This document shows, piece after piece, positions 23,781 to 28,374 of a DNA stretch of 38,492 nucleotides. The position numbers and the translations under genes were made by a program. The notes below the pieces were generated by a model. It saw only the letters and a list, made by a program, of their open reading frames with translations, was not told the DNA's origin and searched no databases. The first letter of the stretch is position 1. Each line of letters begins with the position of its first letter. The DNA comes from an uncultured Bacteroidales bacterium (GTDB lineage: Bacteria > Bacteroidota > Bacteroidia > Bacteroidales > Bacteroidaceae), in assembly GCA_902791675.1 (NCBI GenBank), contig CADAWW010000021.1, positions 1 through 38,492 of the forward strand, written 5' to 3'.

Positions 23781-24125
23781 ATGCCAAGATCAGTAAATCA
23801 TGTAGCTTCAAGAGCTAAGAGAAAGAAAATCCTGGGTCTCACCAGAGGTTACTTTGGTGCCCGTAAGAATGTTTGGACTGTTGCAAAGAACACTTGGGAG
23901 AAGGGTCTTACCTATGCTTTCCGCGATCGTCGCACCAAAAAGCGTAACTTCCGTGCTCTGTGGATTCAGCGTATCAATGCTGCCGCTCGCATGGAGGGTT
24001 TGAGCTATTCTCAGTTGATGGGTCTTCTGCACAAGGCAGGTATCGAGATTAACCGTAAGGTGCTCGCTGACCTCGCAGTTAACCACCCCGAAGCTTTTAA
24101 GGCTATCGTAGCTAAGGTTAAGTAA
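23781..24125 (+). CDS. rplT: 50S ribosomal protein L20
   Basis: 114-residue 23S rRNA-binding protein needed early in 50S assembly. It has the long basic N-terminal helix ([17 protein letters not shown]) and the globular C-terminal half with [27 protein letters not shown]. Length is normal. It is the last gene of the thrS-infC-rpmI-rplT cluster and is followed by a strong terminator at 24158-24188. In E. coli and Bacillus L20 represses its own operon, and the upstream stem-loop is a candidate target here. Confidence 0.98.
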
Positions 24126-24157
24126 TTTCAGTCCTCTCTGAGATTTACAGAAAAAGT

Positions 24158-24188
24158 AGCGTGCTTTTCTATTAAAGGAAGGCACGCT
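24158..24188. terminator. Bidirectional terminator of rplT and the minus-strand RNA
   Basis: A 13-bp stem (24158-24170 with 24176-24188, two G-T pairs on the plus strand) closes a five-base loop ATTAA. On the plus strand it is followed by TTATTTTAT. On the minus strand it is followed by ACTTTTT (24151-24157). It can therefore stop both rplT transcription and the opposing RNA from about 24390. Confidence 0.8.
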
Positions 24189-24202
24189 TTATTTTATATA
24201 AA

Positions 24203-24373
24203 ACCGCACTGGTGATGTGATGAAACTCCGATAGAACAAGTTTTGAGTGCTCGCTGCCTTTGTAATCCACTGACTCTTAGGTTACCCGTTAGGGCGTGGC
24301 CCGCCATTAGCATGCGAAGCGTTCTCGGTTTCATAAAATTTACTGATGAGTATCCCGATCAAACCAGTGCGGT
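24203..24373. repeat. Perfect 11-bp inverted repeat enclosing 149 nt
   Basis: ACCGCACTGGT at 24203-24213 and its exact reverse complement at 24363-24373. It serves either as the closing stem of the RNA candidate or as terminal inverted repeats of a small element. No clear target-site duplication was seen in the AT-rich flanks. Confidence 0.85.
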
Positions 24374-24395
24374 ATTTAGTCTCATCTTCTATGAG

Positions 24396-24426
24396 CAAAG
24401 ATAGTCTCATTTTATCATTCAACCAA
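24396..24426 (-). promoter_or_regulatory. Promoter of the structured RNA
   Basis: Minus strand: -33 TTG (24424-24426) and -7 TATCTTTG (24396-24403), spacer 20 nt. It points into the inverted-repeat region and away from malQ. Confidence 0.7.
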
Positions 24427-24478
24427 GTGTTTACGTCACTTTTTTTATAAAACATAGTGTTTTTTCGATTTTTTTTCA

Positions 24479-24486
24479 TATTTTTG
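24479..24486 (+). promoter_or_regulatory. -7 element upstream of malQ
   Basis: TATTTTTG, 24 nt before the malQ ATG. The surrounding sequence is extremely T-rich and no good -33 box stands out. Confidence 0.4.
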
Positions 24487-24510
24487 TAAAAAAACAAATG
24501 AAATAATGGC

Positions 24511-27189
24511 ATGAAATTTCATTTTTCGGTTGAATATCATACTGTTTGGGGACAACAGATTGGTGTTGATATTACGCGTCGCGTTACAAATGGCAAACGT
24601 GTCGTTGAGCATATCATGTTAGATACACAGGATGGTTTAATTTGGAATGGGGAAGTTTATTATAACAACAACGACACACTTTCTTTTTCTTACCAATATA
24701 TATTATACGAGAACGGTATTGTAACTCGTCGAGAGTGGAATATTGTTCCCCGTTCGTATAATGCATCCTCCAATCACGTTTTTATTTTTTGTGATTCGTG
24801 GCGTGAGATACCGCTATGCAATCATCTGTACAGCTCCGCCTATACACACTGCATTTCTAATGTCCCTCCTAAGGAACCGTTTTTTGCTTATTTCGAGAAA
24901 ACTTTTGTTTTTCGCATACAAGCTCCTCAATTACGTTCTGGTCAGACCCTTGCATTGGTTGGCAGTTTGCCCCAGTTAGGCAGTTGGGAACCACGATGTG
25001 CTTTACGTATGCTTCGTGCTGGTATTAATGAATGGTCCATCTCTATAAGTGCTGATGGAATCAGTACTCCATTTGAGTATAAATATGTTATACTTGATGA
25101 GTCTACAGGTAGTCTCATTGCCTGGGAAGAAGGCGACAATCGCCACGCACCTAACTATGCTATAGAATCCAACAGAATAATCGTTTTAAGCGATAATATG
25201 TTGCAGGTGGGTGAAGAAAGATGGCGTGTAGCAGGTGTAGTAGTTCCTTTGTTCTCTTTAAGAAGTGCGAACAGTCAAGGAGTAGGTGATTTTGGAGATT
25301 TATGCTCTCTGGTTGACTGGGCAGAGCAGACAGGCATGCATATAATTCAATTGTTACCTATCTATGATACTATACAGACACATACCGATGCTGACAGTTA
25401 TCCCTATAACAGCATAAGCATATATGCCCTTCATCCTATGTATGTCGATATAAGACAACTTCCGGTTATTGAGGATGATGTTTTTATGGAAGAGTATGAA
25501 ATAGAGCGTTTAGCTCTTAATTCAGCACCTCGATTGCAGTATTCATGCGTAAATGCTCTAAAAGAACGATATCTTAGACGGTTATATATGCAGTCGGCAT
25601 CTTCTTTGTTTGTAGACGCTGACTACCTGGCTTTCCGTCAGAAGAACATAGATTGGCTTATCCCATATAGTGTTTTCTGCCTGCTACGCGATCAATATGG
25701 AACATGTGATTTCAACAGTTGGCCACAGTTTAGTAAATATGAAGAAGGTAAGGTGCTGGCCTTTGCAGAAAATCATCAGACCGAGGTTGGTTATTATATG
25801 TTCGTTCAGTACCTCCTTGTTAAACAACTTTCTGCTGCTACAAAATATGCGCATCTTCATAAAGTAGTCTTTAAAGGAGATATTCCTATTGGTATCAGTC
25901 GATATAGCGTTGAATCTTGGCATGAACCTTATTATTTCCATATGGATAGTCAGGCTGGTGCTCCACCAGATGATTTCAGTGCGACAGGTCAAAATTGGGG
26001 ATTCCCAACCTATAATTGGGAATGTATGGCTCAAGATGATTATCGCTGGTGGGTTCGCCGCTTAAAAAAGATGGCAGACTATTTTGACGCGTACCGTATA
26101 GACCATGTTCTTGGCTTTTTCCGTATTTGGAGGATACCCCTCCACAGTATCCAAGGGATGCTTGGATATTTCTCACCATCGCTTCCTCTGAGTGTTAGTG
26201 AGATAGAACAGTATGGGCTTCGTTATCGGTATGACTTCTTTACCCGTCCTTATATTACAGATAAAGTTCTGGCTGAAATATTCGGAACCGAGGCCAAAAG
26301 TGTTGTGAAGAACTACCTGATTGATCGTTGCGATGGAACCTATGATCTGAAAGAGTCATTCTCCACCCAGCGTAAAGTTAGGAATTACTTTAATAATTCA
26401 AAGAAGAAGAATGTTTCATTCATTCGCGATGGTTTGTATAAACTTATCAATAATGTTCTATTTATACCAGACGCAGAGAACCATGAACTGCTTCATCCAC
26501 GTATTGCTGTTCAGCAAGATTCTGTCTTCCAATCATTGTCGAATTCAGAACAACAAGCTTTCAACAAACTTTATGAAGATTATTATTACCATAGACATAA
26601 TCAGTTTTGGTATGACCATGCCATGAAGAAACTTCCCATTCTTACCCAAAGCACGCGTATGTTAGTTTGTGCTGAGGATCTGGGAATGGTTCCTGCTTGT
26701 GTTTCTCCTGTTTTGGACGAACTAAAGATACTCTCCCTTGAAATTCAGACAATGCCCAAGGCCTTTGGTCAGACCTTTGCGCGCCTTGTGGATAACCCAT
26801 ATCGTAGCGTGGCAACAATCTTCACGCACGATATGCCAACGTTGCGCGGTTGGTGGCAAGAAGATTATAAGCGTGCACAACTATATTACAATCAAGTATT
26901 GCAACATAAAGGACTTGCACCAAAGCAAATGTCTGGAGAGTTGTGCCAAGAAGTTGTCAGTAGTCATCTTGCCTGTCCTTCAATGCTTTGCATGATAAGT
27001 TTACAAGACTGGCTATCTATCGACGAGAACGTCCGTTTTGCACAGCCTGATGCCGAGCGCATCAATGTGCCCTCCAATCCAAAAAACTATTGGGGGTATC
27101 GTATGCATCTTACCTTAGAAGAGCTCAAGTCCAATACTATGCTCTCCTTACGTATCAGAGATTTGATAGTAAATAGCGGACGTTCTTAG
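24511..27189 (+). CDS. malQ: 4-alpha-glucanotransferase (GH77) with N-terminal starch-binding domains
   Basis: Disproportionates maltodextrins by moving alpha-1,4-glucan chains; used in glycogen and maltose metabolism. The 892 residues comprise a first CBM20-like segment (about 1-105), a clear CBM20 (about 128-225, with LALVGSLPQLGSWEP) and the GH77 barrel (about 245-885). Catalytic residues are visible: nucleophile Asp531 in YRIDHVLGFF, acid/base Glu722 in CAEDLGMVP and Asp774 in FTHDMPTLRGWW. No signal peptide, so cytoplasmic. This long architecture resembles the plant DPE2 type and is frequent in Bacteroidetes. Its stop codon overlaps that of the convergent mltG, and its terminator lies within mltG. 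Confidence 0.96.
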   Translation: MKFHFSVEYHTVWGQQIGVDITRRVTNGKRVVEHIMLDTQDGLIWNGEVYYNNNDTLSFSYQYILYENGIVTRREWNIVPRSYNASSNHVFIFCDSWREIPLCNHLYSSAYTHCISNVPPKEPFFAYFEKTFVFRIQAPQLRSGQTLALVGSLPQLGSWEPRCALRMLRAGINEWSISISADGISTPFEYKYVILDESTGSLIAWEEGDNRHAPNYAIESNRIIVLSDNMLQVGEERWRVAGVVVPLFSLRSANSQGVGDFGDLCSLVDWAEQTGMHIIQLLPIYDTIQTHTDADSYPYNSISIYALHPMYVDIRQLPVIEDDVFMEEYEIERLALNSAPRLQYSCVNALKERYLRRLYMQSASSLFVDADYLAFRQKNIDWLIPYSVFCLLRDQYGTCDFNSWPQFSKYEEGKVLAFAENHQTEVGYYMFVQYLLVKQLSAATKYAHLHKVVFKGDIPIGISRYSVESWHEPYYFHMDSQAGAPPDDFSATGQNWGFPTYNWECMAQDDYRWWVRRLKKMADYFDAYRIDHVLGFFRIWRIPLHSIQGMLGYFSPSLPLSVSEIEQYGLRYRYDFFTRPYITDKVLAEIFGTEAKSVVKNYLIDRCDGTYDLKESFSTQRKVRNYFNNSKKKNVSFIRDGLYKLINNVLFIPDAENHELLHPRIAVQQDSVFQSLSNSEQQAFNKLYEDYYYHRHNQFWYDHAMKKLPILTQSTRMLVCAEDLGMVPACVSPVLDELKILSLEIQTMPKAFGQTFARLVDNPYRSVATIFTHDMPTLRGWWQEDYKRAQLYYNQVLQHKGLAPKQMSGELCQEVVSSHLACPSMLCMISLQDWLSIDENVRFAQPDAERINVPSNPKNYWGYRMHLTLEELKSNTMLSLRIRDLIVNSGRS

Positions 27190-28301: not shown

Positions 28302-28374
<73 letters not shown>

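Follow-up and report, generated by a model that had tools for sequence, protein, structure and literature searches.

A minus-strand gene between rplT and malQ of a Bacteroidales bacterium very probably encodes a 6S RNA

The gap between rplT, which ends at 24125, and malQ, which starts at 24511, carries an RNA gene on the minus strand, and the locus raises the question of what kind of RNA this gene makes. Both neighbours lie in the window, the whole stretch of 38,492 nucleotides from an uncultured Bacteroidales bacterium that was analysed here, and Pfam identified the surrounding genes as thrS, infC, rpmI, rplT, a GH77 4-alpha-glucanotransferase gene (malQ) and a gene for a YceG-like protein. 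6S RNA is a small bacterial RNA that reins in RNA polymerase. We consider it very probable that the gap holds a 6S RNA gene, which a primary sigma factor promoter would drive leftward, with a start near 24391, and whose product would fold into a polymerase-capturing rod (Table 1).

Family membership and extent of the RNA gene

A scan of the whole window at the Rfam gathering thresholds returned two matches, a tRNA (28302-28374) and RF01693 (24196-24374, minus strand). The RF01693 match (Bacteroidales-1; PMC2864571, available part) covered the family model over its whole length (positions 1-179 of 179) and scored 152 bits against a cut-off of 60; the Rfam description of the family reads "6S-Bacteroidales RNA suggested". 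The covariance search thus supplied the family that an initial annotation had been unable to name, and the RNA is a well-supported member of a known, catalogued family. That annotation had proposed a structured RNA that stands alone, is transcribed from a promoter of its own and resembles 6S RNA in outline; these proposals are borne out by the RF01693 match, the conserved promoter, the covarying closing stem and arm, and a link to the 6S-Flavo family.

The general Rfam 6S model RF00013, which the initial annotation had singled out for comparison, found no match in the window's genome at E values up to 10. This miss argues against filing the RNA under RF00013, not against its working like a 6S RNA. 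The 6S-Flavo model RF01685 aligned at the same place with 29.4 bits, under its cut-off of 85; its bubble strands and layout nevertheless align with those of 6S-Flavo. With the canonical 6S RNAs (RF00013; E. coli ssrS, B. subtilis 6S-1), from which it differs in the absent covariance match, it shares a closing stem, a central bubble, a terminal arm and, among its relatives, a zapA neighbourhood; its helix P2 could open in the way set out in the available part of PMC8876501. For Bacteroides thetaiotaomicron, of the same order, the accessible text of PMC7366714 reports a 6S RNA together with product RNAs of two classes, so the kind of RNA is already known; the likeness to that RNA is drawn from the paper's description, and for the prediction of its product RNAs the paper cites PMC4615782.

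The RF00013 result, and an Rfam entry that goes no further than suggesting 6S, would suit a trans-acting small RNA of another kind, which pairs with mRNAs or binds another protein and whose likeness to the rod is convergent. The 6S RNA of B. thetaiotaomicron speaks against such an RNA, as do the alignment of both the 5′ and the 3′ bubble strand with 6S-Flavo, the recovery of 6S-Flavo loci by a model built from relatives of the window's RNA, and the zapA neighbourhood of those relatives; we regard it as very improbable.

A single RF01693 copy was found in the window's genome, which is about 79% complete, and model R1 (described below) gave one match, at the same place, with 146.9 bits. No second copy was found in this approximately 79% complete genome with RF01693, RF01685, RF00013 or R1. 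From the position of the promoter, the RNA is predicted to start at 24390-24392; its length would be about 195 nt if it ends with the U tract (24196) and about 240 nt if it extends to the hairpin beyond. A 76-aa minus-strand open reading frame (24282-24512) that overlaps the RNA gene had no Pfam match. As the initial annotation had stated, no minus-strand gene lies downstream, where the antisense side of rplT comes next.

Table 1. Positions of the RNA gene, its signals and its structural parts in the window
Feature	Position	Strand	Basis
6S RNA gene (very probable)	24196..24392	-	Rfam 152 bits, model R1 146.9 bits; RF01693 match 24196-24374
-33 element TTG	24424..24426	-	20 nt before the -7 box; sequence
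-7 box TATCTTTG (TAnnTTTG)	24396..24403	-	sequence; box upstream of 121/142 homologues
Closing stem P1, 5′ strand	24363..24373	-	perfect 11-bp repeat; covariation
Conserved strand GAUCGGGAUACUCAUCA	24344..24360	-	conservation; proposed product RNA template
Helix P2, 5′ strand GAUACUC	24348..24354	-	pair counts; not significant in tree-based test
Central bubble, 5′ strand	24321..24347	-	between P2 and arm
Terminal arm with apical hairpins	24249..24320	-	covariation
Central bubble, 3′ strand	24229..24248	-	small hairpin possible, competing with P2 in relatives
Helix P2, 3′ strand GAGUUUC	24222..24228	-	pair counts
Closing stem P1, 3′ strand	24203..24213	-	perfect 11-bp repeat; covariation
U-rich tract after closing stem, possible 3′ end	24196..24203	-	sequence
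Terminator-like hairpin between rplT and RNA	24158..24188	.	plus-strand scan; minus strand by reading

Promoter and 3′ end

The promoter with both boxes at 20-nt spacing (24396-24426) is present as first described and is commoner than chance across homologues. A TAnnTTTG box lay within 70 nt upstream of 121 of the 142 homologues scoring at least 60 bits, compared with 5 of 423 control windows taken 300-670 nt upstream at the same loci. Among the 121, a TTG preceded the box by 20 nt in 81 and by 19 nt in 26 (107 in total). According to the accessible text of PMC7366714, TAnnTTTG together with TTTG is the pattern of primary sigma factor promoters in Bacteroidetes; the window matches it except in the upstream element, which is CTTG where the paper gives the full TTTG. 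A sigma-70 scan for E. coli-type promoters reported none at the start of the RNA, whose promoter is of the Bacteroidetes type. Among loci below 60 bits, the box was found in 5 of 23; many of these 23 sit directly behind a zapA-like gene, and their RNAs may be processed from that gene's transcript.

The promoter also bears on whether the RNA could be a cis-acting element of rplT or malQ, acting as an untranslated region or as antisense control of rplT. The RNA does sit in the gap that separates the two genes, and it is transcribed toward the 3′ end of rplT; its promoter, however, is its own and stands on the strand opposite both genes, the neighbours vary, and rplT lay outside the examined flanks in 116 of 165 homologous loci. 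These results make a cis-acting element so improbable that we rejected it.

Downstream of the closing stem, a T-rich stretch followed immediately in 110 of 142 homologues, compared with 35 of 142 in the -300 control window. T-richness was also high at 40 nt further (90 of 142), with 54 at 80 nt and 41 at 120 nt, and the U tract is therefore not decisive as a conserved terminator. The RNA may end at the U tract (24203-24196), and the hairpin at 24158-24188 may serve rplT or act as a back-up. The initial annotation had called this hairpin a bidirectional terminator. The terminator scan reported it on the plus strand; on the minus strand the hairpin is followed, by reading, by ACTTTTTC, but the scan did not report it there, so the bidirectional claim is plausible but weaker.

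The fold and a possible release switch

The RNA is predicted to fold as a rod, the layout of the 6S class: a closing stem (P1) is followed by a helix P2, then by a central bubble that stays open, and the rod ends in a terminal arm. Covariation supports P1 and the arm, and P2 is argued for by pair counts. The perfect 11-bp inverted repeat of the initial annotation was found by reading and corresponds to P1. Pairing was assessed in alignment A1, a set of 44 loci that the authors picked out of 165; 15 of the 44 score below 60 bits. In A1, P1 had 92.9% of cells paired, and 8 of its 9 pairs had changed on both sides; P2 had 95.8% of cells paired and such changes in 2 of 7 pairs; the three helices of the arm reached 70.6%, 89.8% and 57.1%, the last value being that of the small apical helix. 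Taken together, P1, P2 and the arm had 81.7% of cells paired and 29 of 36 pairs changed on both sides, and their covariation score was 0.398. Shuffles averaged 0.212, with none of the 500 reaching 0.398, and slid versions scored no more than 0.137; both controls remove relatedness in part.

A tree-based covariation test (the authors' own script; 164 sequences, of which one, locus L030, was in reverse orientation; 20 null alignments) found seven pairs that exceeded every null value. Three of them belong to the closing stem and four to the arm; column pairs unable to pair also ranked high from an E value of about 1.6 on. The best pair of P2 was not significant in this test (E about 31). When RNAalifold was applied to A1, the closing stem and some of the arm appeared in its prediction and P2 did not; the GAG in the 3′ strand of P2 was paired instead with a CUC in the 3′ bubble strand. 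P2 therefore rests on pair counts: all 7 pairs formed in 30 of the 44 A1 sequences and at least 6 in all 44, and the window's own 7-bp P2 contains one U-U mismatch. An apparent C-G to G-C swap in P2 was seen by eye in two loci outside A1 (L153, L154). The Rfam consensus line of RF01693 leaves both P1 and P2 unpaired, whereas here P1 covaries and P2 is backed by pair counts.

Folding energies were in modest agreement with a structured RNA. The 179-nt RNA had a z score of -2.74 (2 of 200 shuffles as good) and the 213-nt stretch one of -1.14 (25 of 200). The window's fold with P1, P2 and the arm (-44.7 kcal/mol) was less stable than its minimum-energy fold (-52.7 kcal/mol), in which the 5′ bubble strand pairs with GUUUC. 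That pairing, in which the far part of the 5′ bubble forms a helix with the 3′ strand of P2, had weak comparative support: pairs filled 62.1% of its cells, and shuffling gave a score as high in 17 of 500 cases. Concerning the further stems and apical hairpins proposed in the initial annotation, the arm and P2 were supported, and the apical helix (57.1% paired) and some minimum-energy pairs were weak; the compensatory changes it had proposed to look for in the stems were found in P1 and the arm, with P2 backed by pair counts and not by the tree-based test.

By analogy with studied 6S RNAs, the bubble would mimic an open promoter and capture the RNA polymerase that carries the primary sigma factor when nutrients run out. 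On recovery, the polymerase would use the 5′ strands of the bubble and of P2 to transcribe a short product RNA; its template is likely the conserved strand GAUCGGGAUACUCAUCA (24360-24344), and the product would be complementary to the GGGAAACUCAUCA strand. Synthesis of the product RNA would open P2, its 3′ strand would pair elsewhere and the polymerase would be released. We infer the capture, the choice of template strand and the switch from the 6S class and, for capture during slow growth and release by a product RNA, also from the B. thetaiotaomicron report (PMC7366714). Promoter mimicry by sequence, in which the 3′ bubble strand would carry its own version of the -7 box, was considered and set aside, because the likeness to TAnnTTTG was no greater than in shuffles (56 of 142 sequences extracted).

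Two partners for the freed P2 strand are set out in the available part of PMC8876501: in E. coli-type 6S RNAs it forms a hairpin in the 3′ bubble, and in B. subtilis 6S RNA it pairs with the far 5′ bubble. Across A1, the GGAG strand of P2 can alternatively pair with UCC in the 3′ bubble strand. The variable pair of this 3′-bubble hairpin was U-A in 19, C-G in 9, U-G in 3 and unpaired in 13 of the 44 A1 sequences, and 95 of 500 shuffles reached its count of pairs changed on both sides. All 9 C-G cases came from low-scoring, zapA-linked loci, so few independent changes may underlie them; in the window the variable pair is A-A. Re-pairing of the B. subtilis kind had the weak comparative support given above.

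A different way of binding polymerase is represented by Ms1, which, in the available part of PMC9130861, is structurally related to 6S RNA yet binds core polymerase. If the window's RNA resembled Ms1, it would bind the polymerase differently and make no product RNAs. The 6S RNA of Bacteroides, however, is reported in the accessible text of PMC7366714 to give product RNAs, and Ms1 is known from Actinobacteria (PMC9130861, same part); we judge an Ms1-like RNA highly improbable and retain the 6S RNA reading. A 6S RNA here connects the general 6S mechanism with a phylum whose primary sigma factor is unusual; the natural compensatory changes are useful for asking which helix controls release.

Distribution, neighbourhood and movement of the gene

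Among 295 genomes of the order, RF01693 matched 79, of which 56 lay above the cut-off. Within the window's family, 98 of the 101 genomes carried it, with one match each except in genome G356. This genome had three matches (contigs C219, C214 and C107), two of them within the first 1.5 kb of their contigs, which may reflect a strain mixture or a duplication. Model R1, for which A1 supplied the alignment and P1, P2 and the arm the structure, matched 267 of the 295 genomes of the order, compared with 79 for RF01693; two genomes (G043, G154) were matched twice. The RNA is thus free-standing, conserved and usually present in one copy, with these three genomes as exceptions. Because A1 was hand-picked and included 15 loci of 44 below 60 bits, the reach of R1 to such RNAs is partly by construction.

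We checked 20 R1 matches in genomes negative for RF01693, chosen by the authors down the list from 109.6 to 82.8 bits. All 20 lay upstream of rny on the same strand, most less than 150 nt away, and none of the 20 reached the Rfam 6S cut-offs. In the corresponding loci (L195-L214) the RNA sits just upstream of rny, at 474-667 in L195 and near 2001-2200 in the others; these are probably unannotated 6S RNAs, and similar RNAs appear to be unannotated in related genomes. In the phylum sample, R1 matched 25 of 148 genomes: the window's own, 22 others of its class and 2 outside the class. Among the best 19 R1 loci outside the order, 7 were RF01685 6S-Flavo loci above the cut-off and 16 had rny beside them. 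R1 also matched 74 of 80 named loci fetched by a DNA pattern, including, by record title, Parabacteroides distasonis, Bacteroides mediterraneensis and Dysgonomonas mossii. Given 267 of 295 genomes matched compared with 79 for RF01693, R1, with P1 and P2, could serve wide 6S RNA annotation. The RNA itself is a known housekeeping regulator, and the main interest lies in the added closing stem and in a much wider, partly unannotated distribution.

The position of the gene varied. Relative to the RNA, rplT was upstream on the same strand in 45 of the 165 loci, convergent in 4 and outside the examined flanks in the remaining 116. The 4 convergent cases were the window itself plus three loci (L107, L109, L110) out of five others examined from its genus, and because they share the flip, it looks real and lineage-specific, and misassembly is unlikely. 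In five further loci (L242; L302, titled Paraprevotella; L257; L294; L310) the RNA stands near malQ in divergent orientation, like that of the window, so the pairing of malQ with 6S RNA is shared beyond the genus.

In other members the RNA sits between zapA and rny. Pfam identified three upstream proteins of low-scoring loci as ZapA and the downstream one as RNase Y. The available part of PMC7641849 places ssrS behind zapA in beta- and gamma-proteobacteria; in the portion of the literature searched, no paper on a 6S-zapA-rny linkage in Bacteroidota was found. We consider it fairly probable, for the following reading taken as a whole, that Bacteroidales-1, 6S-Flavo and the largely unannotated zapA/rny RNA form one 6S lineage; that its old seat in Bacteroidia was zapA-6S-rny, echoing the proteobacterial zapA-ssrS order; that some families moved the gene, for example to a place downstream of rplT, with its own primary-sigma promoter; and that in several genomes the closing stem may stay behind as a small zapA-rny terminator. 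Under this reading, the absence of P1 and P2 from its consensus would be the reason why RF01693 misses many members.

The zapA-rny gap was read in 16 genomes whose 6S RNA lies elsewhere. A GCAY...RTGC hairpin followed by a T run was present in 6 of the 16 by a strict pattern (L167, L171, L172, L175, L177, L178) and in about 10 by eye; none was found in three genomes of the window's genus. Our guess is that these hairpins are remnants of the 6S closing stem, used as a terminator. By eye, a small coiled-coil gene, with an end like REIDKCIALLN, precedes zapA in many loci (L066, L079, L167-L182), and its product could be a ZapB-like partner.
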